DNA of 64,000 bases from Thalassia testudinum (taxonomy: Eukaryota > Streptophyta > Magnoliopsida > Alismatales > Hydrocharitaceae): the NCBI GenBank assembly GCA_037157565.1, contig JAZHRO010000055.1:39463001-39527000 (forward strand), read 5' to 3'. Numbering within the stretch: position 1 is the stretch's first letter; each line of letters opens with the position of its first letter. The translations under genes and the position numbers were made by a program. Positions 2,187-36,237 of this stretch are shown one piece after another. The notes under the pieces were generated by a model. It ran no database searches and was not told the origin of the DNA. It worked only from the letters and a program-made list of their open reading frames with translations.

Positions 2187-2417
2187 AGACGTCTAATAAT
2201 ATAATCAGACATCTTATCCTCAAAAACCAGTAGTCCAGACTTGTTGTCTGGACGTCCAATCAGAGTCAGGAAGGATTTCGGGTTCTGTTTTGGGTATTCT
2301 CCAGAAATTAGACGTCTGAAAAAGTGTCTGGACGTCCAATAACACTGCAGAAGTGGGTTTGAAGTGTGCGGGAGTTGGCTAAGGGTCCTGGACGTCTTAA
2401 AACTTATCTGGACGTCC
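2187..2417. promoter_or_regulatory. Paired AGACGTCT-type palindromes in LTR of element C
   Basis: Copies start at 2187/2207, 2310/2330 and 2390/2410, each pair exactly 20 bp apart. Another lies at 2250. Variants are GGACGTCC, GGACGTCT and AGACATCT. The core has ACGT, which plant bZIP factors can bind, but a function here is only inference. Confidence 0.7.
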
Positions 2418-2899
2418 GGAGAAGGGTTGGAACTAGGGTTTTTGGGCCTCCTTTGGTGTTGTGACCTAATCTAAGGGTGGCTAAGGCTTGGGAAAGTCTC
2501 TAGCTATCCTAGGGCTAGGATGGACCTAAGCTCTTCACATTTTACTGCTTTATTCCTACTTAATAGAATAACAAACTTTTAACCCCCTTACATTATTATT
2601 CCTACATCTAAACTAGGCCTTCTGCTCCAGCTCTGCTACAACTCCTGTTATTCCTGATCCAGCTTCAGATCCAACTCATGATCAACTTATTCCCTGCAAT
2701 CGGCATAATGCACTTAATCAGCACATTATAACATTATTTTATGCATAGCTAATGGAAAGCAGTAAAGATGCAGATAATGCGTGTGCATGCATGAATAACC
2801 TTAACTTATGCTAAGTGCTAGCCTAATTTAAGTCAATTAAGACCTATGATTGCTACGCAATCACTCAGGGAGAATGGAGGGTAAAGGATATCTCAATCA

Positions 2900-4095
2900 A
2901 ATTTGTATCGGTCATGTCGATGAATGGTTTGAGTCTGACCGTTCACGACGAAGGGTTCGGAATCGTGGCTGACTAGATTGATTTTAATCGCAACATTTCC
3001 ATAGATTCGTCAGACTAAGTAGGGTCCAATCCATTTGATCGCAATTTTCCTGGGAACAGTTCGAGTCTGGCATCGAAGAGTAGGGCCTTTTGACCAGGAT
3101 GAAAGATCTTTCTAGATATGTGCTTGTCGTGAAAGGCTTTAACCCGCTCTTTGTAAATTCGCGAGTTCTCATACGCGTTGTAGCGTAATTCATCGATCTC
3201 GCTCATTTGAGGCTTTCTATGGGTTCCAACCTTAGAAAGATCTAGGTTGCAATTCTGTACCACCCAATAGGCTTTTTGCTCCAATTTGACGGGGAGGTGA
3301 CATGCTTTCCCGTACACCAATCTGAAGGGGGACATACCTAATTGGGTCTTGTGGGCAGTCCTATAAGCCCACAAGGCTTTCGGAAGCCAGGATGACCAAT
3401 CCTTCCTGTCAGGTCGAACAATAACCTGGAGGATTTTCTTGATCTCCCCGTTTGATAACTCAACTAGACCATTAGTTTGGGGGTGGTAAGGAGAAGAGAT
3501 TCAGTGTGACACCCCGTATTTGGTCATCAGTGACCTGAACTGAGCATTTGTGAAATGAGTCCCTTCATCGGAAATTATAGCACGCGGAATCTAAACCATG
3601 AGAAGATGTTCTGATGAATGAATTTGATAACAACTTTATGATCATTGGTTCGGGTCGGAATGGCTTCGATCCATTTGGACACATAGTCAACAATGAGTAA
3701 AATGTGCTCAAAGCCGTCTGAGATAGGGAAGGGTCCCATAAAATCAATCCCCCAAATGTCAAAAATTTCGCATACTAGAATCAGCTGTAAAGGCATCATA
3801 TCTCGAAGTCTTATGTTGCCCAAGGTCTGGCAACAGGTACATGCCTTACAGTGATTATACGCATCTTTGAAAATTGTGGGCCAATAGAAGACACACTGGA
3901 GGACTTTCGTTGCATTTTATGACCTGAAAAACGTCCACCGCATGCCTAGTCGTGGCAGAAAGAGAGTATGCCTTGGATTTCTGCTTCCACGACACATCGT
4001 CGAATTATTTGATCAACATTAATGTGGAAAAGATACGGGTCTTCCCAAAAGTAATACTTGGCATCGGAAAGCAATTTGTCCTTCTTGGCCTTTGG
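2900..4095 (-). pseudogene. Athila A integrase remnant
   Basis: This is the 3' part of pol, which would integrate the cDNA. Pieces in several frames show the integrase core ([12 protein letters not shown] at about 3750, then a [14 protein letters not shown] stretch) and the C-terminal part ([29 protein letters not shown] at 3374-3287, given here in outline only), typical of Athila integrase. At least two frameshifts split it: the core lies at 3823-3575, the C-terminal part at 3374-3015. The catalytic region between them is broken, so it is not functional. Homologous residues are seen in element B. Confidence 0.85.
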
Positions 4096-4590
4096 CTAAT
4101 CGGACGGGATTTGATGTGATGCCAAGTAGTTTAGTATATCAGCAAACCATGGAAGCCCTGTATTGATAGTCAGAAGGTGCTCATTAGGAAAATGTTCCAT
4201 GATGGGTCTGGAAGGGTTGATGATCTCAAAAGGAAGGCGGGACAAGTGATCAGCTACCACGTTCTGTTTTCCCGCTTTGTCATGAATCTCGAGGTCAAAT
4301 TCTTGCAATAGCAAGATCCAGCAGATTAATCGAGGTTGCACGTCCTTCTTTGCAAGGAGATGCCTCACAGCTGTGTGATCCGAGTAGATGATAACACGAG
4401 AACCCAAGAGATATGATCTGAATTTTTCCAGGGCAAATACTACGGCTAGCAACTCTTTCTCAGTAATTGTGTAGTTACACTGAGCCTCGTCAAGTGTTTT
4501 GCTAGCATAGTAAATGACCATGGGTTTCCCGTCAATTTTCTGCCCCAATACCGCTCCTACAGTGAAATCAGATGCATCGCACATGATCTC
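4096..4590 (-). pseudogene. Athila A RNase H domain
   Basis: An open stretch of 162 codons at 4584-4096 starts with [15 protein letters not shown], where the DAS motif carries a catalytic Asp of retroelement RNase H, and includes [12 protein letters not shown] and a SDHTAVRHL segment. It ends with a linker typical of the Athila pol. It lies in a different frame from the upstream RT, so the polyprotein is interrupted. RNase H would remove the RNA strand during reverse transcription. Confidence 0.85.
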
Positions 4591-5690
4591 AAAGGTTTGA
4601 GACCACTCAGGGGACTGTAGGATTGGGGCTTGGGTAACTCGGTCACGGAGGATCTCAAATGCTTGAGTGCATCCTTGGAGATCTCAAAAGGTACATCCTT
4701 AGAGAAACGAGTGGTCAGGGGGCGCGTGATTTTCAAAAAATCAGGGATAAATCGACGGTAAAAATCGACGTGCCCTAGAAAAGATAAGATGTCCTTGATC
4801 GAGCTAGGCATAGGGATTTTGGAAATCAAGTTCACCTTGGCTCGATCAACTTGGATCCTTTCTCTGAAATCAGATGTCCGAGGACAATTCCTTCAGGCAC
4901 CATGAAATGGCTCTTTTCCCAGGAAAGAACCAAATTCACTTCAATGCACCGCTTGAGGATTTGGACCAAGTGCAGGAGGCAATCGTCAAATGATGCTTCG
5001 AAAATTGAAAAGTCATCCATGAAGACTTCCAGATAATCACCTACCATATTTGAGAATATGGCAAGCATGAACCGCTGAAAAGTTACAGGTGCATTGCAGA
5101 GACCGAACGGCATCCTTCGGAATGCGTACGTCCCAAAGGGGCAGGTGAAGGTGGTCTTTTCTTGGTCCTCAGGATGGATTGCCACTTGGTTATAACCTGA
5201 GTACCTGTCCAGAAAGCAGAAGAACTTATTTCCCGCTAGTTTCTCGAGGATCTGATCAATAAATGGTAGTGGGAAATGATCCTTCTTCGTGGAGGAATTG
5301 AGTCTTCTGTAATCAATGCAGACTCTCCACGAGTTAGCCACACGGGTCGGTATGACTTCTCCGATTTCAGTCATAATGACGGTGAGTCCTGCCTTCTTAG
5401 GCACAACCTGGATTGGACTCACCCACTGACTGTCAAAGATCGAGTAGATGATCCCTACATCCAACCACTTAATGATCTCCTTTTTCACGACCTCTTGCAG
5501 ATTAGGATTCAAATGTCTCTGCATTTCCCCTGAAGGTTGTGTGCCCTCTTCGGTGTAGATTCGGTGTGTACAATAAGAGGGACTAATGCCAGTCCAATCA
5601 TCGAGAGTCCATCCAATGGCTCTACAATGTTGCTGGAGAATAGTAATCAGGCGGGATTCAGTCAAGTGTGAGTTTGGAGTTGATAATCAC
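4591..5690 (-). pseudogene. Athila A reverse transcriptase
   Basis: The main open part, 5665-4832, holds the Athila signature around NPNLQEVVKKEIIKWLDVG, then PKKAG, an FFCFLDRYSGYNQ block and the catalytic FMDD (YxDD box) in EVFMDDFSIF. The Gly of the usual LDGYSGYNQ motif is Arg here. The next segment (4835-4557, ISKIPMPSSIKDILSFLGH) is the connection domain in another frame, so there is a frameshift near 4835. It would copy the element's RNA, but it is dead in this copy. Confidence 0.9.
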
Positions 5691-6019
5691 AGGAAACGTC
5701 TGATTGGAACCCAAAAAGACGTATTTCAGATAGTTGGGAAGAGGCTTGAGTTCTAGACCAGGTTATCAGCAGCAACGGGTGGTTCAGGGTGTGTGTCAGG
5801 AGCAAGGGAGGGAGTTATGGGTCTATCTAGATCAGGGTCAGACTCCTCTGTTTGCGAGTTTTGATCTTCTGGTGGTTGATAAAAAATAATCAGGTTGTCC
5901 TCGATATACGGTTCATCAACTATGACTTTGATATCACATATTTGTTCTATAACACCGCAATTAATCCCTTGTTGGGCCTTAAAGATGTCAATCTTCAGTG
6001 TTTGGTTCCCAAATTTTAG

Positions 6020-6478
6020 TTATATTTGGCCCTCCTTACAGTTTATATTGGCCCTAGCAGTGGTCAGAAAAGGTGTTCCTAGTATAATCGGTGTATCCCT
6101 TGGGTTTTCAGGTGCATCCATATCCAAGACTATAAAGTCCACCGGGAAGTAGAAATCCCGTACCCTAACAATGACATTCTCGAGTACTCCTTTAGGCGAT
6201 TTGATGGATCGATCAGCTAACTGCAATGTCACCTTTGTCTGTTTAAGCTCAGATTCTTCAAGGTGGTCAAGGAGGGATGTAGGCATTAGGTTTATGGAGG
6301 CACCTAGATCTAACAAGGCTCTGTCGAATTGAGTATCACCAATAGTACATGAAATTAGGGGAGTAGCTAGGTCTTTAGCCTTAGGTAGGAGTTTGCTCAA
6401 GATTACAGAGTTGGCTTGCTCTGACAGTACAATCGGACTCCCACTTTTGGTTCGCGGCTTACGCTTTAGTGTGCACAC
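6020..6478 (-). pseudogene. Athila A aspartic protease domain
   Basis: The open stretch encodes RALLDLGASINLMPTSL; LDLGAS stands where the D-T/S-G catalytic motif of retroelement proteases is found, and DLGAS is the form usual in Athila. Downstream are DFIVLDMDAPE and PIILGTPFLTTARA, the typical flap and C-terminal segments. The protease would cut the gag-pol polyprotein. It lies between gag and RT as expected. The linker from 6479 to 7227 is broken into short pieces. Confidence 0.88.
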
Positions 6479-7227
6479 GTCTTTTAGAAATCATGCGTAA
6501 GCTGGTACGTGGTGGATTGCATCCATCAAGGGGATGTTTATATGGACCTGTTCAAAGAGCTTGACTAGATCCTCCTCAGGAGCCATGGGTTTGGTTATCC
6601 TCTTTCCCTTGGTTAAGGCCTCGGGAAATGGAACCTTGGTTGGTTCCTCTAGAATAGGTCCAGGTTCTTGATCTGGGATAGGGGAGTCCTGGATAACTAT
6701 CCTAGGGCTTGGGTTACTACCAGGTTTGAAGTGGTTTGGATAAGGTGGGTCTTGAGTGCTTTACCATTACGGGTTGTTACGGAGTTTAGTCCTGCCTGGT
6801 TTTGGTTTGGGGTTGGTAAAATAGGTGGCTGCTATTGAAATCCCGCGTAAGATGTCGAAGCTTCCATCCCGTCGGGTGATGGAATAGAAGGGGCTTGATA
6901 AATCATGTGGGCATGGCCTGGATTTGGGTTCATAGTGCACTTCTGGGTCGTCATGTTATTTTGATTCGGCAGAGGTTGCGAAGGGAGTGTGCCAGGTTGG
7001 CGGGAATTCATCATTTGGGCGAGTTGATTACAAACCTCTGTGATCTCGTCCTTGTGCTATTTTTGTATTACCGCATTCATTTTCTGAATGTCAGCCAGAG
7101 TTTGAAGGATAAGAGTCATTTGATTTGCTTGGTTTGGCCCAGATTGATAGGTGGGGTTGGGTCGAGGCTGAGGAGGCTGATATGGACGAGGAGCTTGTGG
7201 ATGGGGTTGATAAGGTGGTCTTTGATT
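6479..7227 (-). pseudogene. Athila A gag-protease linker (broken)
   Basis: Low-complexity Pro/Gln/Asn-rich linker between the gag core and protease, seen as short pieces such as HAHMIYQAPSIPSPDGME on the minus strand (about 6910-6850). The matching part of element B is colinear. No intact frame. Confidence 0.7.
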
Positions 7228-8559
7228 CTAAGAATTTCCTACGCACAGGAAGTTGGGATGATTCCACCATTCAGGGTTATAGGTATTGGAGAATGGGTCA
7301 TTCTGGATGGCGTTGAGGTCCTCGCAGGTCTGAGGAGCCTCAAGAAAATTAGAGTATGAGGGTTTAGAGTTCCCCCAACTAGAATAGGTCAGATCAGAGG
7401 TTCCTCCGATCCTGGAGTCAAACGAGGGTGGATATGGGTCCATCCCCTGAGAAGATCGGTGATAGATGTTTTGCACAGTTTCCCTTACAAGAGGTGGTTG
7501 TGCAAATGAGTTTTGCGTAGAGGTGGCTCGTTGCAGATGCCGAGTTAGCTCGCCTACCTTCTTCTTTATGATAGAGACCTTGTCCAACCGACTGGCCATC
7601 AGTTCCAAGTCGATAGATGTGGACAGGCCCTGCATCTCATGTGCTCCCCTAGGATTCGTTGATGCGCGGGCGTTCGTCCGGTCAAATAGGCCCATGGAGT
7701 CATTATTGATGGAGTTCTCGCACATATTATCGAGAATCTCCCACACTGTGTCTTCGTGTTGACCCATGATGTTTCCTCCGTAGGATGCATTAAGGAACAA
7801 TAGAATATCTTCCTGGAGTCCCTGGTAAAAAGACTGGACTTGTTGCCATTTAGGAACTTCGTGATGGGGGCACTTTCGCATGAGATCCAAGAATCGGTTC
7901 CATGCCTCATGAAGAGGTTCTCCCAATTGTTGAGTGAAGTGAGTGATCTGGTGGCGCAAGGCATTCGTCCGGCCAACGGGGAAGAACCTTTTCAAAAATT
8001 TGGACTGGAGTTCATCCCATGTGTTGATCGGATGCATCTGAGTCTGATACCAATGAGCAGTCTTGTCCATGAGGGAGAAAGAAAATATTTTCATAAGCAG
8101 AATATCCGGATTTTGTACATCTGACCCGAAGGTTTGGGCCAGATGTTTGAGTTGTTTGATGTGCTGGAATGGATCATCGGAGTTAAGCTCATGGAATTTT
8201 GGAATGGCATGAATCATGTTGGACTTGAGTTCAGAATCAAGACCTCCAGCCGAGATTTGGACTCGAGGCTCGATCGCCACCGCAGTGGGATTATAGTGAT
8301 CTCGCATCATAGGACGCTGCGGCGGGTTTACAAAGTTCTGGAATAGATCATTCAAGCACTGAAGTAGGTGTCTGAGGTTGTTCTCTTCTTCAATTGGTTG
8401 TGCCATGATGGAAGAAGGCGAGCTTGGTTTTGATGAATCAGAGGAGAGGTCTATGTGGTGGGGTTGCTGCACAAACACGGGCGTTGAAGCTTGGCCTCGG
8501 CTGGAGTGAATTTCTAAAGGAGGTCTTAAGGATGGTCTTAAGGACCTCCTACCAAACAT
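7228..8559 (-). pseudogene. Athila A gag
   Basis: A 443-codon open stretch that starts MFGRRSLRP. The same start context is seen in element B (ATG at 47203), which supports it. The core (MIHAIPKFHELNSDD, LMKIFSFSLMDKTAHWY, SKFLKRFFPVGRT, FLDLMRKCPHH) matches the retrotransposon gag capsid domain of Athila. A Q/P/S-rich tail follows. It forms the virus-like particle in active relatives. This is the longest intact stretch of element A, but the polyprotein downstream is broken. Confidence 0.9.
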
Positions 8560-11793: not shown

Positions 11794-11802
11794 TATTTAT
11801 AG
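11794..11802 (-). promoter_or_regulatory. Putative TATA box of solo LTR E
   Basis: CTATAAATA on the minus strand, about 110 bp downstream (in LTR orientation) of the palindrome pairs. Confidence 0.5.
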
Positions 11803-11910
11803 AGTTAGGACCTTAGTGGGTTGTCTACTAGACGTTGGGGTTTAAATCCCAACGTTCATATAACAAAAATTAATTTTCTAGCCATTCAGTTTTGAGCCAA
11901 CGACTACCTG

Positions 11911-12145
11911 GTACCGGTACTAAAGTATGGATACTGGTACTTGTTACTTCCAGATTTGGGTTTCAAACTCTTAACACAAATCTGTAACCCACTTGTACCG
12001 GTACTGATAATTAATACCAGTACTCGTTACCTCTAGTACCGGTACTGATCATGAATATCGGTACTCGCAGGGTATAGGTTTGTTTCTTGACAAAACCCAA
12101 ACTTGTTAACCCACATGTACCAGTACTAAACTTTAGTACCGGTAC
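11911..12145. promoter_or_regulatory. Four pairs of GTACCGGTAC palindromes in LTR E
   Basis: Starts at 11911/11931, 11995/12014, 12036/12055 and 12117/12136, so within-pair spacing is 20, 19, 19 and 19 bp. Each pair has one perfect GTACCGGTAC and one decayed partner (ATACTGGTAC, ATACCAGTAC, ATATCGGTAC, GTACCAGTAC); most changes look like C-to-T or G-to-A. Each second member is followed by T then T/C and G. Confidence 0.85.
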
Positions 12146-12523
12146 TTGTGGCTTAACAAGTACCTTTTTTAAGTGATTTAATCAATTACGTTCTTTGAAA
12201 ATGATTGCAATATTAATCCTAATTTATCTCTAATTATTTTTACGATATAAGTTATATTCCTTTGTTAAGAGGCATATACAATCTATAAATAAAAAAATCT
12301 AAACTAGAAACACTAAAGGTTGAAGATGATTTTCTCCTCCTTGATTATTCCTTGTCATCTTGCCTCATTATCATGATCTTGTCCTTTTCATCAAGCCTCC
12401 ATCATTTCGTGTTTGCCTTAATCTTCACCTAAATCTAAAAAGAACTCAATTGCAAACATTAATTTATAATAATTTTGTTAACACCAAAACAAGATGTGGA
12501 ATAAGGTTCCAACACTGGGGTCT

Positions 12524-13467: not shown

Positions 13468-14295
13468 ACAGGGTTCTAGTGTATGGCCATCAGACAACAT
13501 ACAAGACGTCTGGCACAGGGTCTGGACGTCTGAAAACCTATTTGTTCTGCGGAAATGGATTCCCAAGGAAGATAACGGTTGGAAAATCTCTTAAAGGAGA
13601 TTTTAGGTCAGTCGAGGCAAAACAGTTACATATCAGACGTCTGGGGTCCTCTACAGACGTTTGATATAAGGATAATGGTCATTTTCCTCAACGTTTATAT
13701 GGGCAGCCAACGTTCCACTAATTAGATGTCTAGCAAAGGCATCAGATATCACCTAAGACGTCTAGACTAAGGTATGGACGACTGATTCTAAAAGACAGAA
13801 CCTATTAGGTCCGGCGTAGATGTTTTGGACATCTGATCAAACAGTCAGACGTCTTAAAAGTCACTATCAGACATCTGATTTCCAGATTGGACGTCTGATA
13901 AGGCTGTCTGAACCCTATTTTAGTTTTCTAAGTTCTTTATAGAAAACCTAAGTATCCTAGGATTTGTGTAAGTGTTCCTAGGACTACTATTAGGGTGCTT
14001 TGAGGCTCTTTAACAAGAATCTAAGAAGTAAAATAAGGAGCAACAAAATATAAAGTACAATAGAAAGGAAAGCTATCCTATTCTTCATCTCCTTCCTTCT
14101 TCAAGATTTTGCTCCTCACAAAGCTTCTATGCCTCTGTCAAGCTCCTCCAATCCGCCTTGGATGCGAGCTCGAACTCCGTTTAAACACCTGTCTCCATTT
14201 GCAATTTGACTTGAAGACTAAGACTCAAAAGCAAATGTTAAAAGACATGTTTTGTTATCATCAAAATAAACGATCATGGTGCTCTAGCACCAACA
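13468..14295 (-). mobile_element. Copia-type LTR fragment F
   Basis: On the minus strand it starts at 14295 as TGTTGGTGCTAGAGCACCA and soon shows TTTTGATGATAACAAAA, the usual start of SIRE/Angela-like Copia LTRs. It is cut at 13468 by Athila A, so its other end lies left of A and outside the window. ATATC (14296-14300) may be its TSD. It carries five pairs of AGACGTCT-type palindromes. Confidence 0.75.
13503..13896. promoter_or_regulatory. Five pairs of AGACGTCT-type palindromes in LTR F
   Basis: Starts at 13503/13523, 13635/13655, 13756/13776, 13827/13847 and 13869/13889: every pair exactly 20 bp start to start. Variants are GGACGTCT, AGACGTTT, GGACGACT, GGACATCT and AGACATCT. Confidence 0.85.
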
Positions 14296-19754: not shown

Positions 19755-21150
19755 TGAAATCAGCACAATAGGGAGGTGAATTGTGCTCAAATTAAAAATA
19801 TAAGCAATTAAAAATCAATCCAATACAAATGAACACAACAATTTATAGAGGATTTTTTTTTTTAAGAAAAAACCTCTACCTAGATTTCTCAATCTAGAAT
19901 GTTATCCCAACCAAAGTTGCAATCACTAATGCCTCACTACTTCAAGTGAGAGTTGTGTTCCTCAAGTACAATTTCCATTCTTAGATGGCTCCAGAAAGAC
20001 TTTGTCCCTTTCTTTTTAAGAGAGACAAAAAACCCACAACCAAGGTACCTACGACTACACTAAAATCTGAATGAATATCAAAATAAAATGTAAAAGTCCA
20101 ATAAAGCCTTGTATAACATGATAGTGCATGTGATAGGATTTAGAAATAATCCTTTTAGCTTCCCTTAGGTATGATTTGAAGTGAAATGACTAAAGGAAGT
20201 GAAGGATCGAAGTACAAGAGCCTTGATGTAGAAGTTCAAACAGAACTGACAAAAGCAAATAATTGTCAATTTGAATGTTTGGAGACTAAAAGCAAGAGAA
20301 AGTAAGTTTTTTTTTTACCTTGAGACTTTTAGGATATTTATAGAGGTTATTCATGCCTTACAAACCAATTTCTACAATTTTACAATGAAAAGATTTTGAA
20401 AAGAGAAGATACATCCTTTAAAAGTTAAGAAAGATTTTGAATTTTCTAAAAAACTCTAAAATTAACCAACTAGGAGAACACATTAGTCAATTAATTTTCA
20501 GTTTATTAAACATTTAAGAGAAGCCATTAAACATATATGGGGAACAATATTCTCCAGCAAGAGCATCCTTTCGGAAATTAATTGATTAAGATTGTCGATT
20601 AATCAATTAACCTCAGACTTTCATTTTTACTAGTTACTAACTAATTGATTAACTCTACATCTTTAACCAATAAATTTTGTGAAAGTTAGTCATTAACAAA
20701 AACCATAAAAAATTTAAAAGATGCATCTTTTCAAAAGTTAATGTTGCATTTTCAAATTAAAAATCAACTGTTTAGCATATTTGAGCATAAAAGCATATTA
20801 TAAAAATAATTTTCTATTATGTGAATAGATTTGAAAATACAAGTTTCAAGATGCTAAATGAATGGTCGAGCGATTACATAAAATGATTAATTTACTCTTA
20901 AGACAATACTGAAAGGAATATTTTGAAATCCTTTGGAGCTTTACTGGGTTCTATGATTTACTTAAGTGTTTAGTGACCTAAGTTATGTGAAGATAAGTGC
21001 ATCACTAGGCTCTTTATCATTAAATCCAAAAGTAAAAATAAAAATAAAAATAAAAATGCTGAGCCTTCTTTGCATGTGTTCTTTATGAATTAGTCATCGT
21101 TTTGAGCACCCTTATTTATTCGTTTGGATCTTTAATCTTCTTGTTTGAGT
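19755..21150 (-). repeat. Copia-type LTR remnant H1
   Basis: Its left part (ATCAGCACAATAGGGAGGTG) parallels the left part of H2 at 24033-24052, with shared blocks through the R/U5 region and a TATA box at 20335-20343. TTAATTGATTAA and TTAATCAATTAA at 20578/20599 are 21 bp apart. The right boundary near 21150 is uncertain. No coding region is attached. Confidence 0.6.
20335..20343 (-). promoter_or_regulatory. Putative TATA box of LTR remnant H1
   Basis: CTATAAATA on the minus strand, identical in form and position to that of H2 (24610-24618) and E (11794-11802). Confidence 0.45.
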
Positions 21151-22410: not shown

Positions 22411-23757
22411 TGGTTTTGATTATAACAAACATCTCAAATCATTGGGATTAAAATAAAAAATTTTATTGTGCTTGCAAGAATTTCAATTTTCAGGATAGCC
22501 AAGTGTTGAGATTTGAATTCAAGGAGAGCTTAAGGTGTTGAATTCAATACAAAAATTTCACGATGGAGACCAAATGCTTAAAGAGCTTTTCAAAGACTTC
22601 GAGTTAGGTCGATTTGTAACATAGGACATTAAGTCATATGCTTACTTTGTTTGCTAGATTATAAGGAGAGCCCCAATATAGATCTTTTTAGACAAACATT
22701 AGGGGTCTCTTACATAACTTTTACATGAGCACCTTCACATGACCCAAATAGGTCTAATCAACCTTTACTAGGTCATTAAGTGCTAATTAAGTGTTAAAAA
22801 TCACTTAGATATATTAAGAAGATTAATTGTACTTGATTTCCCTTAGGTAGGCTGAAGATAGCCTATCAAAAGTTAGGTAATAATGACCTAACGTTTGATC
22901 AAGAAGTTTGGGTTGAGCCAGAGCCTTTCAGGAACTAATGAACATTGCATGGAATTGAAGGCCTAACATTAGTAGTGGACCTAATGTTAATCACCTTTAT
23001 CTAATGCTAGGTAAAGCACTTTTTAACCAACTTATTAGCCGTTGGCTTAGCACGTGAGGTGGAGGATTTGAACATTGGAGGGCATGCTCTTGACCTATTT
23101 TAGTCTCCAACTAACCTCTTGAAATATATTCATGGCCTCCCATCATTTTGCAGCACTTAGATAACACATATACATCATTTCTCAATTAATCAAAGCCCTA
23201 TGCACTTATTCTCAACTATTGTTCTCTTTGAAGCTCTTATGCACACTCTCAACTCTTTTGGAGCTCCTCAAAAAATTCTCCCTACTATACTACACACTCC
23301 TACACCTCAAGGGAGCAATTTCTTGCTTTCCTAGATAGCTCATAATCATTAGAATTACATATTTATTTGGGGCTGTTCATAGCATTATATTGAGTTGTTT
23401 TTATTCATTTCTACTCTATCTATCATGTAATTCGAGGGCCCAAGTTGTGGGTCCCTTTTCCCTTAAGGGAGATGGGCTTTTAGTCTTGATTGGGGAATCA
23501 AGAGTGGTTATAATAAAGGTTTGGTATCTCACAAGTATCGGTTGGTTTTCTAAGGTTGACTTGGGGCAAAATCCTAGGTTGGGAGACCTAGGTAGTGGTT
23601 TTTCACTATTTAGGATTTTCCACTATAATTTTGGTGTTGTGGGTTATGCATATCTATTTTTGTTGGATTAGCTTAGTTTAATTTCTACTCAATTTTTGAA
23701 TTAGCTTTTAATTTCTCCTTAAACACTATTCACCCCCTCTAGTGCTTCTAATATTAT
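22411..23757 (+). repeat. Copia-type LTR remnant I
   Basis: Starts TGGTTTTGATTATAACAAA and carries CACCCCCTCTAGTGCTTCTA near its end (about 23730-23750), both typical of SIRE-like plant Copia LTRs. A block with CTAGGTTGGGAGACCTAGG (about 23573-23592) parallels a GTTGGGAGGCTTAGG block on the minus strand of E. The ends are approximate and no TSD was found. Confidence 0.6.
22868..23012. promoter_or_regulatory. CCTAACGTTAGG-type palindromes in LTR I
   Basis: Half or full sites centred at about 22871, 22892, 22939, 22967, 22985 and 23005. Several adjacent centres are 18-21 bp apart. All are variants of CCTAACGTTAGG with changes mostly at the central CpG (CCTAACATTAG, CCTAATGTTA). Confidence 0.55.
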
Positions 23758-24609: not shown

Positions 24610-24618
24610 TATTTATAG
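24610..24618 (-). promoter_or_regulatory. Putative TATA box of LTR remnant H2
   Basis: CTATAAATA on the minus strand, about 110 bp downstream of the nearest palindrome pair in LTR orientation. Confidence 0.5.
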
Positions 24619-24726: not shown

Positions 24727-24993
24727 TTAATCGATTAACGCTCATATTAATCGATTAATGAAGAGAAAATTGATCGATTAATTTCTGCACATCTTAGTTC
24801 AAAACAAAGCATGAAATCCCAAAATTAATTGATTAAGCGATTTTCTTAATCGATTAACCCAAGTCCAAGAGCATCTTGATGTTTGGTTAATCAATTAATT
24901 TATAGTCCTAATTGATTAGTTTTTGTGTCAAATACTTAATTTTTGTACCCAATACTGAAATTAATCGATTAACCATTTCTCTTAATAAATTAA
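24727..24993. promoter_or_regulatory. Paired TTAATCGATTAA palindromes in LTR H2
   Basis: Pairs start at 24727/24747 (20 bp), 24825/24846, 24887/24908 and 24961/24982 (21 bp each), plus a further copy at 24770. Perfect copies are at 24727, 24747, 24846 and 24961; the others differ mostly at the central CpG (TTAATTGATTAA, TTAATCAATTAA). Confidence 0.85.
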
Positions 24994-25450
24994 CTTTTTA
25001 TTTTGAATGTTGTATAATTTGAAAGATGTGTCCTTTTAAGAGAGTATTATTTCAAACTCATAACTAGCCTTCTAGATGATGCTAAAATATCTCTATTCAA
25101 TTAATTTTGAATGTTTATGAATTTCTAAGTGTTTTTTTGGATAAGTGCGAAGTTTTTAAGTGCTATACAATGGCTCTTCTACCAGGCTTCTAGAAAAACA
25201 AATAAAATAAATACTTGAGGCTTCTTTTGACTTGATGAAGTCTTGAAATGTATGCCTTGGTCCTCTTGACATTCTTGAGCTTCCTTGAGATAATCTAAAT
25301 AGGCTATTGCCTCTTTTGCATTCTTTAGCTTCATTAAGAAGTATACAACTTTATACTTTGATCATCTTCATCTTGATCTTTTACTTATCTTTGAAATACA
25401 AAGTTAGATCAATATACCTTATTTTGTTGACATCAAAATCTGGTTAATCA

Positions 25451-26459
25451 GTGCTTAATTTGCATTGACATGCTTTGCCATGATGAATCGAGGAGGTGGG
25501 TGGTGGTTGCTGCCACGAGGGAAGTGTAGGGGAGTTTAAATGTGAGGGCTTAACGGTGGAACTGCAAGACGTCCAAGTGATTATGTTGAAAATGGAAAAT
25601 TTCTAAATTGAGGTATGTGTTGTCTATTAATGAAAATTGTATCACAAACTAGCATTACTAAAAGAACCAGTGGATAGCATTGTATTTCATAAATTAAACC
25701 TATAATACAATCATGAAAACTATAAATATAACTACTTTATCTATTAATGAAGATTTATTACAAACTAGTAATACTAAAAGAACTATTGGAATATATGTTA
25801 AACTTGTGTTATAGTAATAAAAAGGGAATACGACTACTGTATCAATTAATGAAAGTTGTATTGAAAACAAGTATTATAAATAGAATTAGTGGAATCTATA
25901 TTATAAATATGTGAACTAACTTCTACTTCGGTGATGAAACTTGGATTACAATTACAAAAATCGTAATTCTCAAGAAAGAGACTGGAATTGACAATAAGTT
26001 ATAAGTGGAAGTTGTAAATAGGCTATAATTGACATGATTAATTAAGTTTGGTTGTAATATATTCTAATAATGGATGGTGAAAATTCTATAAAATTGCAAG
26101 GTGGATTTAATCAGCATGAAAGATCATCCAAAGAGAAATAATTGGTGCTGATTTTGTATCTTCTGTGCACAACACTCAAAAAATACATACATACATACAT
26201 GTATGTAAAAAGTATCTTATGAGTACTATACCCAGAAGATACAAAGAAAAGTACCATATACCAGCTGTTGGATTTGTATTGGGGTTGATGGAATCGACCT
26301 TTGCGATGGTTGAGTGGTTTACAAAAACACTTTTTATTTTCATAAAGATCCCCAATCAATTATTAAGGAATGTATAGAAAGACTTCAGTGTCCATTTTTA
26401 TATTTTCATCCTCCTGCTTCTGCTCTATCAACCATTATGCTTTTTTGTTTGATGTCTTT
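25451..26459. repeat. AT-rich repeat locus, left flank of element J
   Basis: It holds three degenerate units of about 100-118 bp starting near 25622, 25740 and 25842. The end (26380-26459) joins in wording to the sequence right of J, and the junction resembles a second copy at 36540-36580. So this is the left part of the repeat locus that J entered. No gene. Confidence 0.6.
26153..26245. repeat. Inverted repeat with 13-bp arms
   Basis: TTTGTATCTTCTG (26153-26165) and its exact complement at 26233-26245 enclose a 67-bp loop with CATA repeats. Both arms resemble the hairpin ends of the inverted-repeat element at 62918-63838. Confidence 0.75.
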
Positions 26460-26490
26460 TGAAATGACCCACCACCCCATTGGTCATTTA

Positions 26491-27158
26491 AGACATCTGG
26501 GACGTTCACCAGACCTCTGTCAGGACGTCTGGGATGTTCAGCAGACATTTGAAAATACTTTTTAGTGCGGAACGTACGTACGCCAAACTTCATCACCGCA
26601 CCTCACCGCACCACCACCTGTGACACCACTCTGCACCATGCTTCGCCTTTCCGCCCCCCTCACCTCCTCTCCCTTTATAAACCTCTCCCCCTCCTCTTCG
26701 TTGCCCACCCCGTAGCTGAGAGCAGAGCGAAGGCGAGAGCAAGTGAAGAGCGGAGAGCTTGAGCGAGAGGAAGTGCAAGAGCGGAGGGTGCAGCACCATT
26801 CTGCTGCAGCACCTGCAGGCAAGGGGAGCCAGAGCAGTTTCGCGGAAGTCATTTTTCCGTGGAATCAGACGGCCGAAGAGACACCCAGACATCTTACCGG
26901 ACGTCTGAAGGTAGAGCAAGATGCCTGGTAGAGATCTACTTTCCGTACTTTCTCTCTCTGACAAGTCCTGACAGCATACGTATATGTACCAGAAGGCGAA
27001 AGCTTAGCCGAGGCAGTTTCAGACGTCCGGGAGCACCCCCAGACGTCTGACGGAGTTATGGGATGTCGACATTGAGTTCCAGACGTTTGATAGCGGAACA
27101 TCGAGAGAGGTATCCCTGAGAACTATTTTAGGACGTTTGGGACCTTTCCTAGACGTCT
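26491..27158. promoter_or_regulatory. Paired AGACGTCT-type palindromes in J 5' LTR
   Basis: Pairs start at 26491/26511, 26523/26543, 27021/27041 and 27131/27151, each exactly 20 bp apart; single or closer copies are at 26887, 26899 and 27081. The first two pairs are upstream of the TATA box, the others downstream. In the 3' LTR the first two pairs recur at 33934/33954 and 33966/33986 with the same spacing. Confidence 0.85.
26674..26681 (+). promoter_or_regulatory. TATA box of J 5' LTR
   Basis: TTTATAAA in a pyrimidine-rich context, conserved in the 3' LTR at 34110-34117. Confidence 0.65.
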
Positions 27159-28861
27159 AATTTCCGTCTGATAGCGTGTTTTGGGCAGTGTAAGGCCCTA
27201 TTGTTATCATTTTTCCACAAACGAACCGTCTCTATTTTCCGTACGAGTTTGTCGGTATAATGATACCTTGTTTATATCTTTTTGAACCTTTTGGCCCATC
27301 AATCTATGTTTTAGGTCTCCAGTCCGTCGGGTGTACGGGACCTGTGGAGACGTCGGGAGCCACTGTACGAGCCCCCATTCCACCCGGTTACCCAAGTAGA
27401 GTGGTTACAACTTTAAATCTCTAATTGCATACATGCAAGTAAGTAATCATAGGACTTGAGATGAACCCTAGGAAAGAATAAACGTATACTCGAAAATAAA
27501 TTCTTGAACCCTAGGTCTTGGCATAAACACTAGGGTTAGAAGAAACTGCATGTGAACGATTGAGTAATCAAAAGCTTCCTATTTTTATGGACCCCTACTG
27601 TAATAAAATGGAATTTGAACTGTTTGTTCTGAACATTCCAGCCCGGATGTGAAAAAGAAACTCCTGTACGAACCCCACAGGGAAAGTAAATAAGAACACT
27701 GTACTATGGAGAACCAGATGGTTCTGGGAATTCGCTGCCTATGGGAAGCTGTTAAGGGAGGTAAGGTGACCTTCGTGTACGTGGTACCGAAGAGAGCAAC
27801 TATCCCTTGTAATGTAGAGGGGAGCTTGCCGCCCTTGGGTTGGGACCCAGGGTGGGTTTGGCCACTCTACGACGACTCTTACTGGCCCTCGTGTACGTGG
27901 TACCGAGGTGAACTACTTAGTGTAGGGGGGAGCTATTCGCCCCAAGGGGCCCGGAGCTAGGTATGACCACCCTACACTGACTCTCGTCAGCCCATTGGGC
28001 AAACTGGGGTAGTCGGACGAGGGTACGTGGACTGAGGAGGGGCGAGACCCTTGAGGGGCAAGACCCCTATTCTATTCTGAGAGGGCAAGACCCTATACTG
28101 TTCCGCACTATACGTTGAGGCGTACCCGGTAGTGAAAATGACTGACCGCATGCTAGTGCGAGGTAGCTACCCGCATGCTTATCACGTGTGCCGTAGTCAT
28201 AGCTACGTCACGACCGTGACCTCAGGGTGGTAGACCTAGTATAGGACTACCACGGTGGGACTCCCCCGGCCAGGAGAGTGCCACGTTGGCATCCTATATC
28301 ACGGGAAGCTGCAAGCAAAATCATTCCTATAGGGAACAAGAAGATTAAGTAACAAATCCTAATTAGAGATCTCTACGCACCCACATGTATAATATAATTG
28401 GAAAATGAAAAATTTTATGTTAACTACTTATTAAATGTATGTTACTTCTTAGCCACCACTCTACTCTTATTAAATGTATGTTACTTCTTAGCCACCACTC
28501 TACTCAGCATTAGCTGACTCGAGTTAAATAAATTCTGTACAGGTCAGGGATTTGAGCAGCCTGAGCCACCGGCTGCTGAGGACACTGGGCCTAGTCGAGC
28601 CTAGCTTTAGTTCTACTGCTTGATAGTGAGTTTTTATAGCTTTGTCTTCTGTTACATGTACTCGTTTGATGTGATGGCTGTAATATTACTATTCTTTTTT
28701 CCCCCTGTTGTAAATTTCTTTTTTCTTAGTTATTGTACTTGTGTGATTGTGGTTTGTTGAATGTTACTTGGTTATTTCTTGTTGGACGACTGGATCTTGG
28801 GATAAACCAAAGTGAGTCGGTCTTAGATCCTGTAAGGGTTTGGGACCGAGTCGTGACAAGA

Positions 28862-28873
28862 TGGTATCAGAGC
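28862..28873 (+). other. Primer-binding site of J (tRNA-iMet type)
   Basis: TGGTATCAGAGC, the usual initiator-Met site of plant chromoviruses and Copia elements, three bases after the LTR end. Confidence 0.93.
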
Positions 28874-29043
28874 AAGGTCATCTCGAGAAATGAGCCAAGT
28901 AGTCCGGAAAACACCACACTTATACATGTAACTAAGATAGCCATCACAACCTTTTCTCTTGGTTATTGTATCCGAGTCTCATGTCTCATCTTTGGTTGAA
29001 CAGGCACCAATAATCTCGTTCCTCTTCAATCTTTGGGTAGGAA

Positions 29044-30310: not shown

Positions 30311-30745
30311 CGACCCAGAGCATGGCTGTTTCTTCTGCACCGAGGACTGAAGGGCGTGTTAATGCCCTAACTCACGGAGATGCCAGAGCTTTGGGCTCCG
30401 TAGTGGCAGGTATGGTTACTATTTCCGGCAAACTCGTTTACACTCTTTTCGATTCTGGAGCCACGCATTTGTTTGTTTCTACGAGTTTTGCTGTCTGCAC
30501 GGGAGTGAGCAGTGTGCTTTTAGAGGAGCCCTTCCTGATTAGAGGACCAGGTGGGTAGGTATTTGTTGTCGAAGAAGTTCTCACTGATTGTGAGGTCATG
30601 ATAGGGGGATACAATCTTCTGATAGACCTGATCATGATCCCGATGGATGACTTCGGTGTAATCTTGGGGATGAATTGGTTGGCCGCATACCACACCCTTG
30701 TAGATTGTTTTGGGAGGAATATTGTCTTCTCGATACCACGGTTGC
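30311..30745 (+). pseudogene. J aspartic protease domain
   Basis: In frame with gag. It holds VYTLFDSGATHLFVS, with the catalytic DSGA motif intact, and farther on GGYNLLIDLIMIPMDDFGVILGMNWL, the C-terminal part of the fold. One stop lies near 30556. A frameshift at about 30740 separates it from RT. It would process the polyprotein. Confidence 0.88.
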
Positions 30746-32260
30746 CCCATTCGAGTTCCACGGCCAGCCTGTAGACAGAGGATTCAGATGCATCTCTGCA
30801 CTTCGGGCAGCGAAGCTACTGAGTCAAGGGTGCGAGGGCTTCCTTGCTTGCATTCTAGCAGAGCCCGGCCCCGTGGACAGTATACAGAGTATTTTGATGG
30901 TCTGTGAGTACCCCGATGTCTTCCCAGAGGAGCTGCCAGGACTGCCACCTGAGCGCGAGATCGAGTTCGAGATCTCACTGATACCGGGGACAGGCCCCAT
31001 TTCTTCAGCATCATATTGAATGGCCCCGCTTGAGTTGTGAGAGCTCAAGACACAGCTACAGGACCTGCTAGAGAAAGGCTTCATAAGGCCCTGCGCCTCT
31101 CCATGGGGAGCCCCCGTCTTATTCGTGAGAAAGAATGATGGTACTCTTTGGCTGTGCATTGAATACAGACAGTTGAACTAGGTCACCATCAAGAACAAGT
31201 ACCCGTTACCATGCATAGATGACCTCTTCGACCAGCTGAGGGATGCCACGATATTTTCAAAGATAGATATGAGGTAAGGATACCATCAGCTGAGGATTAG
31301 GGAGACCATCGTCTCCAAGATAGCCTTTCGTACACGGTACGACCTCTACAAGTTCTTGGTCATGCTATTTGGATTGACCAACACCCCTGCCGCTTTCATG
31401 GACTTGATGAACCACATTTTTCGGCCATATCTGGATCAATTTGTGGTTGTTTTCATCGATGATGTGCTCATTTATTCACGAGACCAGACGCAGCATAAGC
31501 AACACCTTCACATGGTCTTGGAACCTTGAGACGGCACAGGTTGTACGTCAAATACAGAAAATGCAAATTCTGGTTGAGACAAGTCACCTTCTTAGGCCAT
31601 GTAATCTCAGAGGATGGTTTAGCTGTGGATCCAGCTAAGGTAGAGGCAGTACTCAGGTGGGAGAGACCGCATTCGGTGACAGAGATAAGCAGTTTCCTGG
31701 GGTTGGCTAGTTATTATAGACGATTTATCCAAGGGTTCTCACAGATTGCCTGTCCTCTTACTCATTTGACTCGGAAGTACGTACCCTTCGCCTGGACAGA
31801 CGAGTGTGAGTCTTGCTTTCAGAAGCTGAAGGAGAGGTTGGCCTTAGCTCATGTAATCACCATCCCTGACAACATCGGTGGATTCGTCGTCTACACAGAT
31901 GCCTCATTGCAGGGATTGGGGGGTGTACTTATGTAGCGGGGTCATGTTGTCGCATATGCTTTGCGGCAACTAAAGCCCCACGAGCATAACTACCCCACTC
32001 ACGACCTAGAACTAGCAGCAGTCGTCCTAGCATTGAAGACCTGGAGGCACTATTTGTACGGAGAGACGTTCGAGATTTTCATTGACCATAAGAGCCTCAG
32101 ATATCTGTTTGACCAGAAGGAACTCAACATGAGGCAGAGATGCTAATTGGAACTCCTGGAGGACTACGATTGTAGCATCTCCTACCACCCAGGAAAGGCC
32201 AATGTGGTAGCTGACGCCTTGAGCCGAAAGGCACCCACCCACGTGGCTTGCTTACAAGCA
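30746..32260 (+). pseudogene. J reverse transcriptase and RNase H
   Basis: The segment opens with EYPDVFPEELPGLPPEREIEF, the usual N-terminal lead of Tekay RT. It then has [38 protein letters not shown] and the catalytic box [12 protein letters not shown] (about 31443-31478). Stops lie near 31018, 31180 and 31275, and a frameshift at about 31520. The connection (FLGLASYYRRFI) and RNase H ([41 protein letters not shown]) follow, with stops near 31934 and 32144. It would make cDNA from element RNA. Confidence 0.93.
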
Positions 32261-32479
32261 CAAAGTTGGAGACTCATGGAGGAGTTGAGCAGCTGGCGAC
32301 TTCAGGAGACACAGGGGTATTGCGGGGCAGTGACAGTCGCGAGGCAGACACGACCAGAGCTGGTGGATCGCATCATGGTTAAACAAATGACGGAGTCATA
32401 TCTATGGGCACAGCGAGACCGAGTATTGGTAGGGAACCCAGGAGAATTCTCTTTCACTGATGGAGTTCTGCGTATGAGG

Positions 32480-33660
32480 GGATGCTTGTGCGTTCCTAGA
32501 GATGAGGAGCTGTTGAGGGAACTCTTGACTGAGGCTCATGGATCCAGATTTACCATACATCCCAGCAACACGAAAATGTATCATGACCTACGACGTGATA
32601 TTTGGTGGAGAGTCATGAAGCGAGATGTTGGCCTTTTCGTCCAGCAGTGTCTAATATGCCAGCATGTGAAGGCCGAGCATCAGAGGCCTGCAGGGCCATT
32701 GTAGTCACTTCCCATTCCAGAATGGAAGTGGGAGAGTGTCACTATGGATCTGGTAGTAGGGTTACCTGTGACACAGAGAGGGCACGATGTAGTCTGGGTG
32801 GTTGTGGATAGATTAACAAAGATGGCACGATTCCTGCCAATCCGAGTCACTTATGGACCAGCACAGTTGGCAGAGAGATACATCAGAGACATAGTACGCT
32901 TTCACAGGGTTCCCCGCGAAATTATTTCAGACAGGGACACTCATTTCACCTCCCAGTTCGGGGCAGAATTTCAGCGAACCTTGGGGACTTATCTGAAGTT
33001 TAGTACAGCCTATCACCCTCAGACAGATAGACAGTCGGAGCGCACCATTCAGACCCTTGAGGACCTTCTACGCGCTTACGTACTGGACTAGAGAGGCTCC
33101 TGGGAAGAGCATTTGCCTCTGGTAGAATTCGCATACAACAACAGTTACCACTCGAGCATCGGCATGGCACCATATGAAGCTCTGTACGGAAGAAAGTGTA
33201 CAACTCCCTTGAGTTGGGTAGAGGTGGGGACCAAGTGGGAGGTCGGCCCCCGTCTGATACGCCAGAGTCAGGAGGTGATCGAGCAGATCCATCGACGATT
33301 GCGTACTGTCCGAAGCAGGCAAAAGAGTTACGCCTATCTGAAGCGTAGGGAGGTACAATTTGAGGTTGGAGGTGACGCTTTCCTCCATGTTTCATCGATG
33401 AAAGGCTTGCAGCGGTTAGGGATGAAAGGGAAGCTTGCACCAAGATATGTGGGACCCTTTGAGGTCTTAGAATGGGTAGGACCCGTTACTTATCGGCTTG
33501 CCCTTCCTCCCCAACTTTCTGGAGTACACAACGTATTTCACGTGTCCAACCTCAGAAGATACATCGTCGACCCCAGCGATGTCGTTAGCCACGAGAACAT
33601 CGAAGTGGGAGATGACCTGACCTACCCCAAGAGATCGGTACAGATACTAGACTGAGCCAT
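32480..33660 (+). pseudogene. J integrase
   Basis: A His/Cys zinc-binding domain (HPSNTKMYHDLRRDIWW, then CLICQHVKAEHQRP, about 32555-32700) precedes the DDE core: [60 protein letters not shown]. The three acidic positions look retained. The C-terminal GPFEVLEWVGPVTYRLALP matches the GPF/Y module. Stops near 32702 and 33089 break the frame. It would insert the cDNA into chromosomal DNA. Confidence 0.93.
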
Positions 33661-33800
33661 TCGAAGGTTGAGGCGGAAGGAAGTACCCTTAGTGAAAGTC
33701 CTGTGGAAAAGCTAGCGGTACGAGGAGGCAACTTGGGAGCTTGAGTCGGCGATGCGAGATTAGTACCCGGAACTCTTCGAAGGTATGACTCTTCTGACCT
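33600..33800 (+). pseudogene. J integrase C-terminal chromodomain-like tail
   Basis: DDLTYPKRSVQILD, then RRLRRKEVPLVKVLW, then EEATWELESAMRD. This is the order seen in the chromodomain of Tekay/Del integrases, which in known chromoviruses targets chromatin. In-frame stops near 33653, 33711 and 33760 break it. Confidence 0.82.
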
Positions 33801-33811
33801 ACTTCAGTCCT

Positions 33812-33902
33812 CTTTAAGTTTGTTATATGCTGCTACGTTATATTTCTCGCACCCTAGTCAGTTCAAGTTTCGGGGACGAAACTTCCTTTAAGTTTGTTAT
33901 AT
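33812..33902. repeat. 17-bp direct repeat replacing the polypurine tract of J
   Basis: CTTTAAGTTTGTTATAT occurs at 33812-33828 and again at 33886-33902, the latter touching the 3' LTR. A G/A-rich tract should stand here in Tekay elements (after CGGGGACGAAACTTC, present at 33871-33885) but is absent. Confidence 0.8.
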
Positions 33903-36237
33903 TAAAATGACCCACCACCCCTTTGGTCATTTAAGACGTCTAGGATGTTCACCAGACATCTATTTGGACATCTGGGATGTTCACCAGATGTCTGAAAATA
34001 CTTTTCAGTGCGGAACGTACGTACGCCATACTTCCTTCCTCACTGCACCAGCTCCTGCGACGCCACTCCGTGCAATGCTTCACCTTTCCGCCCCCTCACC
34101 TCCTCTCCCTTTATAAACCTCTCCCCCTCATCTTCGTTGCCCACCCCATAGCCGAGAGCAGAGCGAAGGTGAGAGCGAGTGAAGAGTGGAGAGCCTGAGC
34201 GAGAGGAAGCATGAGAGCGGAGGCTGCAGCGCCGTTCTGCTGCAGCACCTGCAAGCAAGGGGAGCTAGAGCGGTTCTACGGAAGTCATTTTTCCGCGGAA
34301 TCAGACGGCTGGAGAGACACCCAGTCGTCTTACCGGATGTCCGAAGGTAGAGTAAGACGTCTGGTAGAGATCTACTTTCTGTACTTTCTCTCTCTGACAA
34401 GTCCTGACAGCGTACGTGTATGTGCCAGAAGGCGAAAGCGTAGCCGAGGAAGTTTCAGACGTCCGGGAGCACCCCCAGATGTCTGACAGAGTTATGGGAT
34501 GTCGACATTGAGTTCCAGACGTTTGATAGCGGAACACCGAGAGAGGTATCCCTGAGAACTATTTTAGGATGTTTGGGACCTTTCCTAGACGTCTAATTTC
34601 CGTCTGATAGCGTGTTTTAGGCAGTGTAAGGCCCTATTATTATCGCTTTTCCGCAAACGAACCGTCTCTATTTTCCGTACAAGTTTCTCGGTATAATGAT
34701 ACCTTGTTTATATCTTTATGAACCTTTTGGCCCATCAATCTATGTTTTAGGTCTCCAGTTCGTCAGGTGTACGGGACCAGTGGAGACGTCGGGAGCCACT
34801 GTACGAGCCCCCATTCCACCCGGTTACCCAGGTAGAGTGGTTACAACTTTAAATCTCTAATTGCATACATGCAAGTAAGTAATCATAGGACTTGAGATGA
34901 ACCCTAGGAAAGAATAAACATATACTTGAAAATAAATTCTTGAACCCTAGGTCTTGGCATAAACACTAGGGTTAGAAGAAACTGCATGTGAATGATTGAG
35001 TAATCAAAAGCTGCCTGTTTTTATGGACCCCTACTGTAATAAAATGGAATTTGAACTGTTTGTTCTGAACATTCCAGCTCGGATGTGAAAAAGAAACTCC
35101 TGTATGAACCCCACGGGGAAAGCAAACAAGAACACTGTACTATGGAGAATCGGATGGTTCTGGGAATTCACTGCCTATGGGTAGCTGTTAAGGGAGGTAA
35201 GCTGACCTTCGTGTACGTGGTACCGAAGAGAGAAACTATCCTTTGTAATGTAGAGGGGAGCTTGCCGCCCTTGGGTTGGGACCCGGGGTGGGTTTGGCCA
35301 CTCTACAATGACTCTTACTGGCCCTCGTGTACGTGGTATCGAGGTGAGCTACTTAGTGTAGGGGGGAGCTATCTGCCCCAAGGGGCCCGGAGGTAGGTAT
35401 GGCCACCCTACATCGACTCTTGTCAGCCCATTGCCAAACTGGGGTAGTCGGACGAGGGTATGCAGACTGAGGAGGGGCGAGACCCCTGTTCTATTCTGAG
35501 AGGGCAAGACCCTATACTGTTCCGCACTGTACGTTGAGGCGTACCTGCTAGCGGAAACGACTTACTGCGGCTAGTGCAGGGTAGCTACCCGCACGCTTAT
35601 CACATGTGCCGTAGTCACCGCTACATCACGACCGTGACCTCAGGGTGGTAGACTTAGTATAGGACTACCACGGTGGGACTCCCCCGGCTAGGAGAGTGCC
35701 ACGTTGGCATCCTATATCACGGGAAGCTGCAAGAAAAATCGTTCCTATAGGGAATAAGAAGATTAAGTAACAAATTCTAATTAGAGATCTCTACGCACCC
35801 ACATGTATAATATAATTGGAAAATGGAAAATTTTATGTTAACTACTTGTTAAATGTATGTTACTTCTTAGCCACCACTCTACTCAGTATTAGTTGACTCC
35901 AGTTAAATAAATTCTGTACAGGTCAGTGATTTGAGCAGCCCAAGCCACCGGCTGCTGAGGACGCTGGGCCTAGTCTTGCCTAGCTTTAGTTCTACTGCTT
36001 GATAGTGAGTTTTTATAGCTTTGTCTTCTGTTACATGTACTCGTTTGATGTGATGGCTGTAATATTACTGTTCTTTTTTCCCCCTGTTGTAAATTTCTTT
36101 TTTCTTAGTTACTGTACTTGTGTGATTGTGGTTTGTTGAATGTTACTTGGTTATTTCTTGTTGGAAGACTGGATCTTGAGATAAACCGAAGCGAGCCGAT
36201 CTCAGATCCTATAGGGGTTTGGGACCGGGTCGTGACA
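33903..36237 (+). repeat. 3' LTR of J
   Basis: Starts TAAAATGACCC (5' LTR has TGAAATGACCC) and ends GTCGTGACA. TATA box at 34110-34117. It lacks the 39-bp duplication of the 5' LTR. Confidence 0.95.

Follow-up and report, generated by a model that had tools for sequence, protein, structure and literature searches.

Why the long terminal repeats (LTRs) of different retrotransposons should carry short CG-centered palindromes about 20 bp apart is the question raised by a 64-kb stretch of Thalassia testudinum DNA (GenBank assembly GCA_037157565.1, contig JAZHRO010000055.1, positions 39,463,001 to 39,527,000; here called the window). Palindromes of the types AGACGTCT, GTACCGGTAC, TTAATCGATTAA, and decayed CTAACGTTAG were grouped in the LTRs of the window, with neighbors at 19 to 21 bp. 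When pairs were followed across the genome, quantized spacing was found to belong to particular palindromes, each family having its own spacing, which was tight for three of them and broader for TTAATCGATTAA.

Palindrome arrays in the window

The arrays, with the element parts that belong to them, were as follows.

2187 to 2417, minus strand: cluster A, LTR-like DNA with LTR limits not fixed; seven RGACGTCY sites (at most one mismatch), three 20-bp pairs
660 to 672, minus strand: Athila-type primer-binding site (PBS), one mismatch; the element runs off the left end
11911 to 12145, minus strand: LTR of Copia E; eight GTACCGGTAC-type sites, gaps of 20, 64, 19, 22, 19, 62, and 19 bp; Sirevirus-like motif at 12473, TATA at 11801
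13468 to 14295, minus strand: partial LTR of Copia F, limits set by eye; 11 RGACGTCY sites at 13504 to 13896, five 20-bp pairs
20578 to 20610, minus strand: H1; a single pair of decayed TTAATCGATTAA sites 21 bp apart
22866 to 23011, plus strand: LTR of Copia I; five decayed CCTAACGTTAGG sites, gaps of 21, 75, 18, and 20 bp; Sirevirus-like motif at 22414
24727 to 24993, minus strand: LTR of H2; eight TTAATCGATTAA-type sites, gaps of 20, 23, 55, 21, 41, 74, and 21 bp; Sirevirus-like motif at 25422, TATA at 24617
26459 to 28858, plus strand: 5′ LTR of Gypsy J; array at 26491 to 27158 on both sides of the TATA-like TTTATAAAC at 26674; PBS at 28862
32147 to 33655, plus strand: pol remnants of J, Integrase_H2C2 and SH3_Tf2-1 (Gypsy), the only two domains found in J
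33902 to 36237, plus strand: 3′ LTR of Gypsy J; array at 33934 to 34594, with 20-12-20 modules at 33934 and 34303

The sites listed in a preliminary description of the window were all recovered in the sequence to within 1 bp. They had been described as CG-centered palindromes; a CG center was present in 27 of the 42 and 18 were perfect, but both members were perfect in only 2 of the 21 pairs. The motif given for Copia I, CCTAACGTTAGG, was absent from the window as an exact word, the nearest match in element I having two mismatches, and in the whole genome exact CCTAACGTTAGG occurred 1,044 times versus 129 for its reversed control. With one or two mismatches allowed, the clusters held 8 (E), 11 (F), 8 (H2), 12 per LTR (J), 7 (A), 5 (I), and 4 (H1) copies.

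The spacing had been claimed to be nonrandom, and gaps of 19 to 21 bp exceeded random placement in seven of the eight clusters. The motifs and mismatch limits of these placement tests were chosen after the finding had been seen, and the two J clusters are the two LTRs of one element. Pairs observed at 19 to 21 bp versus the null mean were 3 versus 0.42 for A (P = 0.004), 4 versus 0.58 for E (P = 0.0009), 5 versus 0.71 for F (P = 0.0002), 3 versus 0.58 for H2 (P = 0.013), 2 versus 0.33 for I (P = 0.03), 4 versus 0.51 for the J 5′ LTR (P = 0.0009), and 5 versus 0.51 for the J 3′ LTR (P = 0.0001); the single pair of H1 was not significant (null mean, 0.14; P = 0.13). When the window was scanned for 8-base near-palindromes of any motif, the peak fell at 20 bp: 13 pairs lay there, whereas the average distance had 2.7 and none of eight shuffles gave more than 5. 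De novo cluster scanning with 10-mers recovered E, F, H2, I, and J.

Pair distances across the genome

Exact palindrome pairs were counted over 31 distances (12 to 42 bp) in the 4.26-Gb assembly, using each pattern read backwards as its control; such counts of repeats may be lower bounds. There were 379,078 pairs of AGACGTCT (control, 1,007), 6,412 of GTACCGGTAC (control, 9), 173 of TTAATCGATTAA (control, 1), and 576 of CTAACGTTAG (control, 6). Distances were tabulated for the pairs listed first, which came from early contigs (for AGACGTCT, the first 0.5 Mb of contig C1). Among 100 listed AGACGTCT pairs, 96 lay at 12 (15 pairs), 20 (58), 22 (12), or 32 bp (11), with one each at 21, 30, 40, and 42 bp. 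The 50 listed GTACCGGTAC pairs included 47 at 19 (38 pairs) or 20 bp (9) and one each at 29, 40, and 42 bp. For TTAATCGATTAA, 32 of the 50 listed fell at 19 to 23 bp (mode 21 bp, 15 pairs), 13 at 41 to 42 bp, and 5 elsewhere, while the 50 for CTAACGTTAG were at 19 (14 pairs), 21 (30), 29, 30, and 39 (one each), and 40 bp (3), with none at 20 bp. The preliminary description had the geometry identical across families; a distance of about 19 to 21 bp does recur, but each family has its own values, and 12 and 22 bp recur as well for AGACGTCT.

The control palindrome ACTCGAGT gave 69 pairs versus 218 for its reversed control, with 29 of the 50 listed at 24 bp and one at 20 bp. The published Tnd-1 palindrome, the only other one tried as a control, gave none. 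The effect is thus specific to particular palindromes. Palindromes in general are ruled out as the explanation by ACTCGAGT, which showed no excess and a modal distance of 24 bp. Separately, the ACTCGAGT pairs 24 bp apart have similar spacers and constitute a small dispersed repeat in the genome.

The larger AGACGTCT gaps, other than 12, 20, 22, and 32 bp, clustered around multiples of 10.2 bp (23 gaps; R = 0.73, compared with 0.65 at 10.5 bp). Less conditioned scans used twenty 10-kb stretches, one every 4 Mb along contig C4 (200 kb; the C4 sample). Here, 18 exact RGACGTCY sites had 25 neighbors within 120 bp (at most one mismatch), and for 10 of these neighbors the distance was exactly 20 bp. 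When 8-bp near-palindrome pairs were sorted by center, 19 to 21 bp separated 6 of 47 with CG, 1 of 85 with GC, 5 of 128 with AT, and 3 of 76 with TA, and in a looser CG-centered scan all seven pairs at exactly 20 bp were of the AGACGTCT type. Clusters of AGACGTCT were found de novo in 2 of the 20 sampled loci and in a chosen genomic locus, L025, compared with none of 21 shuffled loci. For family I, 16 of 20 exact CCTAACGTTAGG sites had a neighbor at 19 to 21 bp.

Spacer sequences and CpG decay

The preliminary description had named one 20-bp tandem duplication per family as the alternative origin of all pairs. For 24 pairs from five window families, spacers matched the stretches just upstream and downstream at 150 of 522 positions (28.7%, versus 25.9% at random), a count that retains one misregistered J pair (26511, whose +20 partner is not a site). 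Spacers thus vary in sequence at constant length and carry no memory of duplication, and simple 20-bp tandem duplication is therefore rejected. Among the listed AGACGTCT pairs, 38 distinct 12-nt spacers fell into 10 unlike clusters of equal length. Within families, spacer likeness was 0.56 to 0.78 for E and 0.92 for two J pairs; since some spacers are this similar, part of the pairs are copies of one another.

The sites also showed decay of their CpG. In the C4 sample, one-mismatch RGACGTCY sites phased with an exact site carried CG-to-TG/CA changes in 18 of 32 cases, versus 41 of 251 for unphased sites, and in family I such changes made up 40 of the 75 mutated positions. Judged from base changes, this excess is what decay of methylated CpG is expected to leave; it does not itself show methylation-sensitive binding.

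Retrotransposons carrying the arrays

Arrays were present in both Sirevirus-type Copia and chromodomain Gypsy LTRs. The claim that the element clades are unrelated holds for this contrast, J being Gypsy, but not among E, F, H2, and I, which share a Sirevirus-like mark. The mark sought was an inverted repeat flanking the junction of polypurine tract (PPT) and 3′ LTR, with AT/TG attachment. It was found, by motif, in L026, an F-type copy elsewhere in the genome that matches F at 77% over 859 bp; its arms lie at 3634 (one mismatch) and 3690 around the PPT/3′ LTR junction GGGGAGATTG, and its PBS is at 2129. In the window, E, F, H2, and I have the LTR-side arm only (0 to 2 mismatches).

Locus L025 encodes RVT_1, RNaseH, Integrase_H2C2, SH3, and a Chromo domain barely above its cutoff, and shares 76% identity with the J internal region over 4.6 kb. 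We presume that J-type elements are Tekay, and we take Tekay to be the same as Del. Both J and L025 carry AGACGTCT arrays in their LTRs; near the LTR end, the sites are spaced 20-12-20-12-20 in L025 and 20-12-20 at the same place in J. The array geometry outlasts the sequence, because the J and L025 arrays give no match although later parts of the LTRs align piecewise at 73 to 76%. The two LTR arrays of L025 (941 to 1045 and 8658 to 8762) differ by one 12-bp module, with the sites staying in register. Of the 17 reading frames of L025, 4 were scanned, 3 with gag-pol domains and 1 without a Pfam match, this being the sole look for an element-encoded factor.

A TATA box follows shortly after the end of the array in three LTRs, at about 110 bp in E and H2 and about 120 bp in L026; the distance is 236 bp in H1 and about 700 bp in cluster A. 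The same pattern found no TATA in I, J, or L025, J having TTTATAAAC inside the span of its array. Cluster A had been assigned to an Athila element, C, but its more likely owner is the element with the PBS at 660 to 672; the cluster is upstream, on the minus strand, of that PBS and of a TATA at 1485. We take the tRNA-Asp-type motif read there to be Athila type, and going by this PBS cluster A probably belongs to that element, for which no coding region was identified in the window.

Elsewhere in the window, a long element at 43534 to 57201 has 2.7-kb LTRs (87.9% identity), with its Athila-type PBS at 46238; these LTRs had no listed RGACGTCY pair with a distance of 12, 20, 22, or 32 bp. A degenerate array of telomere-like TTTAGG words (40018 to 40193) and a purine-rich minisatellite with a period of about 88 bp (58758 to 59313) were also observed.

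Relation to known repeats

The preliminary description knew of no named element of this kind. However, palindromic "repeated motif" (RM) boxes of Sirevirus LTRs were described by Bousios et al. in 2010 (PMC2829016) as multicopy, grouped in the LTR ahead of the TATA box, CpG containing, and family specific, with clusters that form predicted CpG islands. In the parts of that paper covered, RMs have a CGG-CCG core except in Tnd-1, are called specific to Sireviruses and absent from the classic (other Copia) elements compared, and have no common binding factor that could be named. The Thalassia motifs likewise are palindromic, multicopy, LTR clustered, CpG containing, and family specific, and the Tnd-1 RM, ACAATCGATTGT, and the Usier RM, with its central ACGT, resemble them. 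At least eight clustered LTR copies, the number used for Sirevirus RMs, were present in E, F, H2, and J, with A, I, and H1 below this. In contrast to Sirevirus RMs, AGACGTCT, CTAACGTTAG, and TTAATCGATTAA lack the CGG-CCG core and GTACCGGTAC has CCGG only. Their spacing is quantized, whereas the covered parts of PMC2829016 give no fixed spacing, and the AGACGTCT arrays of J and L025 stand in Gypsy LTRs, unlike RMs, which that text, comparing Copia, reports as absent from other retrotransposons.

Maize Sirevirus LTR palindromes (Bousios et al. 2016, as cited in PMC10760457 and PMC5311732) are described there as small-RNA hot spots with strong predicted secondary structure; they similarly form a palindrome-rich cis-region of the LTR, but the maize palindrome is CACCGGACNNNGTCCGGTG. 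Del LTRs have plastic 5′ CpG islands, which a eudicot group lacks (Cruz et al. 2014; PMC4029996), and the Thalassia LTRs of this Gypsy lineage resemble them in a CpG-rich part of variable length in the 5′ half; the string "palindrom" did not occur in the searched text of that paper. The VANDAL VANC target motifs (Hosaka et al. 2017; PMC5735166) are also short, family specific, and repeated in noncoding DNA, including the unrelated AT9TSD1, but as reported in the text seen they are nonpalindromic (e.g., YAGTATTAY) and bound by an element-encoded protein.

A literature search found nothing on paired spacing of LTR palindromes, including the portions seen of PMC3414828, PMC4963935, and PMC12844716; Bousios et al. 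2016 and Krawczyk 2002 lie outside it and may describe spacing. Novelty is thus partial: LTR palindromes of Sireviruses are known, and what is apparently new is the fixed, family-specific spacing and a motif common to Sirevirus-type and chromodomain Gypsy LTRs. The arrays appear to extend to further families a feature known from one plant retrotransposon group.

Possible function of the arrays

We favor the explanation, and hold it fairly likely, that the LTR arrays are cis-regulatory sites bound cooperatively by a dimeric factor, which is probably sensitive to methylation. Each CG-centered palindrome would be the site of a DNA-binding dimer, as is expected where the site itself is palindromic. 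Adjacent dimers would be separated by roughly two turns of the helix, at 19, 20, or 21 bp depending on the family, and additional sites would lie near whole turns (12, 22, 32, and 40 to 42 bp); the near-integral turns would arise because dimers touch on approximately the same face of the DNA, where they probably bind cooperatively. Binding is probably blocked or altered by CpG methylation, since the palindrome is centered on CpG, and the array could then act as a switch between a silenced and a transcribed state, ending just upstream of the TATA in the Sirevirus-type E, H2, and L026 and lying on both sides of it in Gypsy J. A similar interpretation had been offered before; the helical spacing of dimer-type sites agrees with the few distances, the phasing at about 10.2 bp, and the absence of duplication memory, while methylation is supported only indirectly, through the CG-to-TG/CA decay.

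Several observations weigh against cooperative dimer sites. The distances are not one universal value, the listed pairs were drawn from the first contigs with element copies included, and the published Tnd-1 palindrome gave no pairs in the genome. The larger phased AGACGTCT gaps may be sums of 12, 20, 22, and 32 bp with decayed intermediate sites, and their period was scanned for. In the C4 sample, an 8-base scan without a condition on the center found 14 pairs at 20 bp and as many at 21 bp, but 10 bp had 16 (the mean per distance being 5.6), and scans with 10- and 12-base words showed no clear 20-bp peak. De novo cluster scanning of 21 10-kb loci yielded only AGACGTCT and no fifth palindrome family, and in the window it missed cluster A. 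Finally, cluster A is far upstream of its TATA, and J and L025 have some of their sites at least 500 bp inside the LTR.

A special case of the cooperative-site explanation, which we regard as possible but doubtful, is that the arrays are ordinary enhancers for host bZIP factors of the TGA type. The C-box GACGTC is contained in AGACGTCT and the T-box AACGTT in CTAACGTTAG, and a single host factor would account for the sharing of one motif between Copia and Gypsy LTRs. The tandem sites of as-1 are spaced 12 bp apart. TGA factors bind both boxes and can place two dimers on adjacent sites, with spacing affecting binding and activity (PMC9360754). The as-1 core is TGACG. As an ACGT core is missing from GTACCGGTAC and TTAATCGATTAA, one bZIP cannot account for all families; with two palindromes having bZIP cores and two lacking them, the arrays would require several factors of the host or else a class of factors that has diversified.

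More speculatively, and rather improbably, Copia and Gypsy elements of one genome may have converged on a geometric code of CpG-centered dimer sites at exact helical spacing. The sequence would name the family and the spacing would be fixed by one type of protein. This protein would be either host encoded or a VANC-like antisilencing factor that a single element family provides in trans, and unrelated elements would have gained its motif in order to exploit it.

It seems unlikely that the palindromes act instead at the RNA level, pairs forming stem-loops in LTR transcripts and feeding silencing by small RNAs. This role has been argued for in maize Sireviruses, whose palindrome-rich LTR regions are given as small-RNA hot spots in the portions seen of PMC10760457 and PMC5311732. 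Folding of the palindrome clusters did surpass that of their dinucleotide shuffles (100 for each; z of −3.5 to −10.4 in ten stretches), but these scores do not separate the explanations because any repeated palindrome folds well. A hairpin requires only that the second site be the reverse complement of the first, yet every site is itself palindromic, and helical spacing of sites beyond a pair is not needed. Flank covariation was suggestive at positions 2 and 3 of AGACGTCT, where it is confounded by family, and absent for GTACCGGTAC (P = 0.32 to 1.0).

Neutral history, in which slippage of 12-, 20-, and 32-bp modules built the arrays and the spacing was inherited rather than selected, would fit the one-module difference in L025, the common flanking bases and spacer identity of up to 0.78 in E, and the many copies among the listed AGACGTCT pairs (71 distinct of 100), but is improbable given unlike spacers at exact lengths (the 10 clusters for AGACGTCT and, in family I, numerous dissimilar spacers of 9 and 11 nt), the arrival of four different palindromes at 19 to 21 bp, and the different behavior of ACTCGAGT, the one control palindrome with pairs.

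For the cooperative-site explanation, the exact spacing and the sharing between Copia and Gypsy now permit a direct search for the dimeric factor, Sirevirus palindromes having been in print since 2010. The predicted factor is a dimer that would prefer two sites 20 bp apart and lose binding on CpG methylation. If found, it would reveal a cis-switch linked to the spread of about 379,000 AGACGTCT pairs (12 to 42 bp apart) within a single plant genome, and would be relevant to the question of why DNA that is so rich in CpG and so readily silenced is retained.

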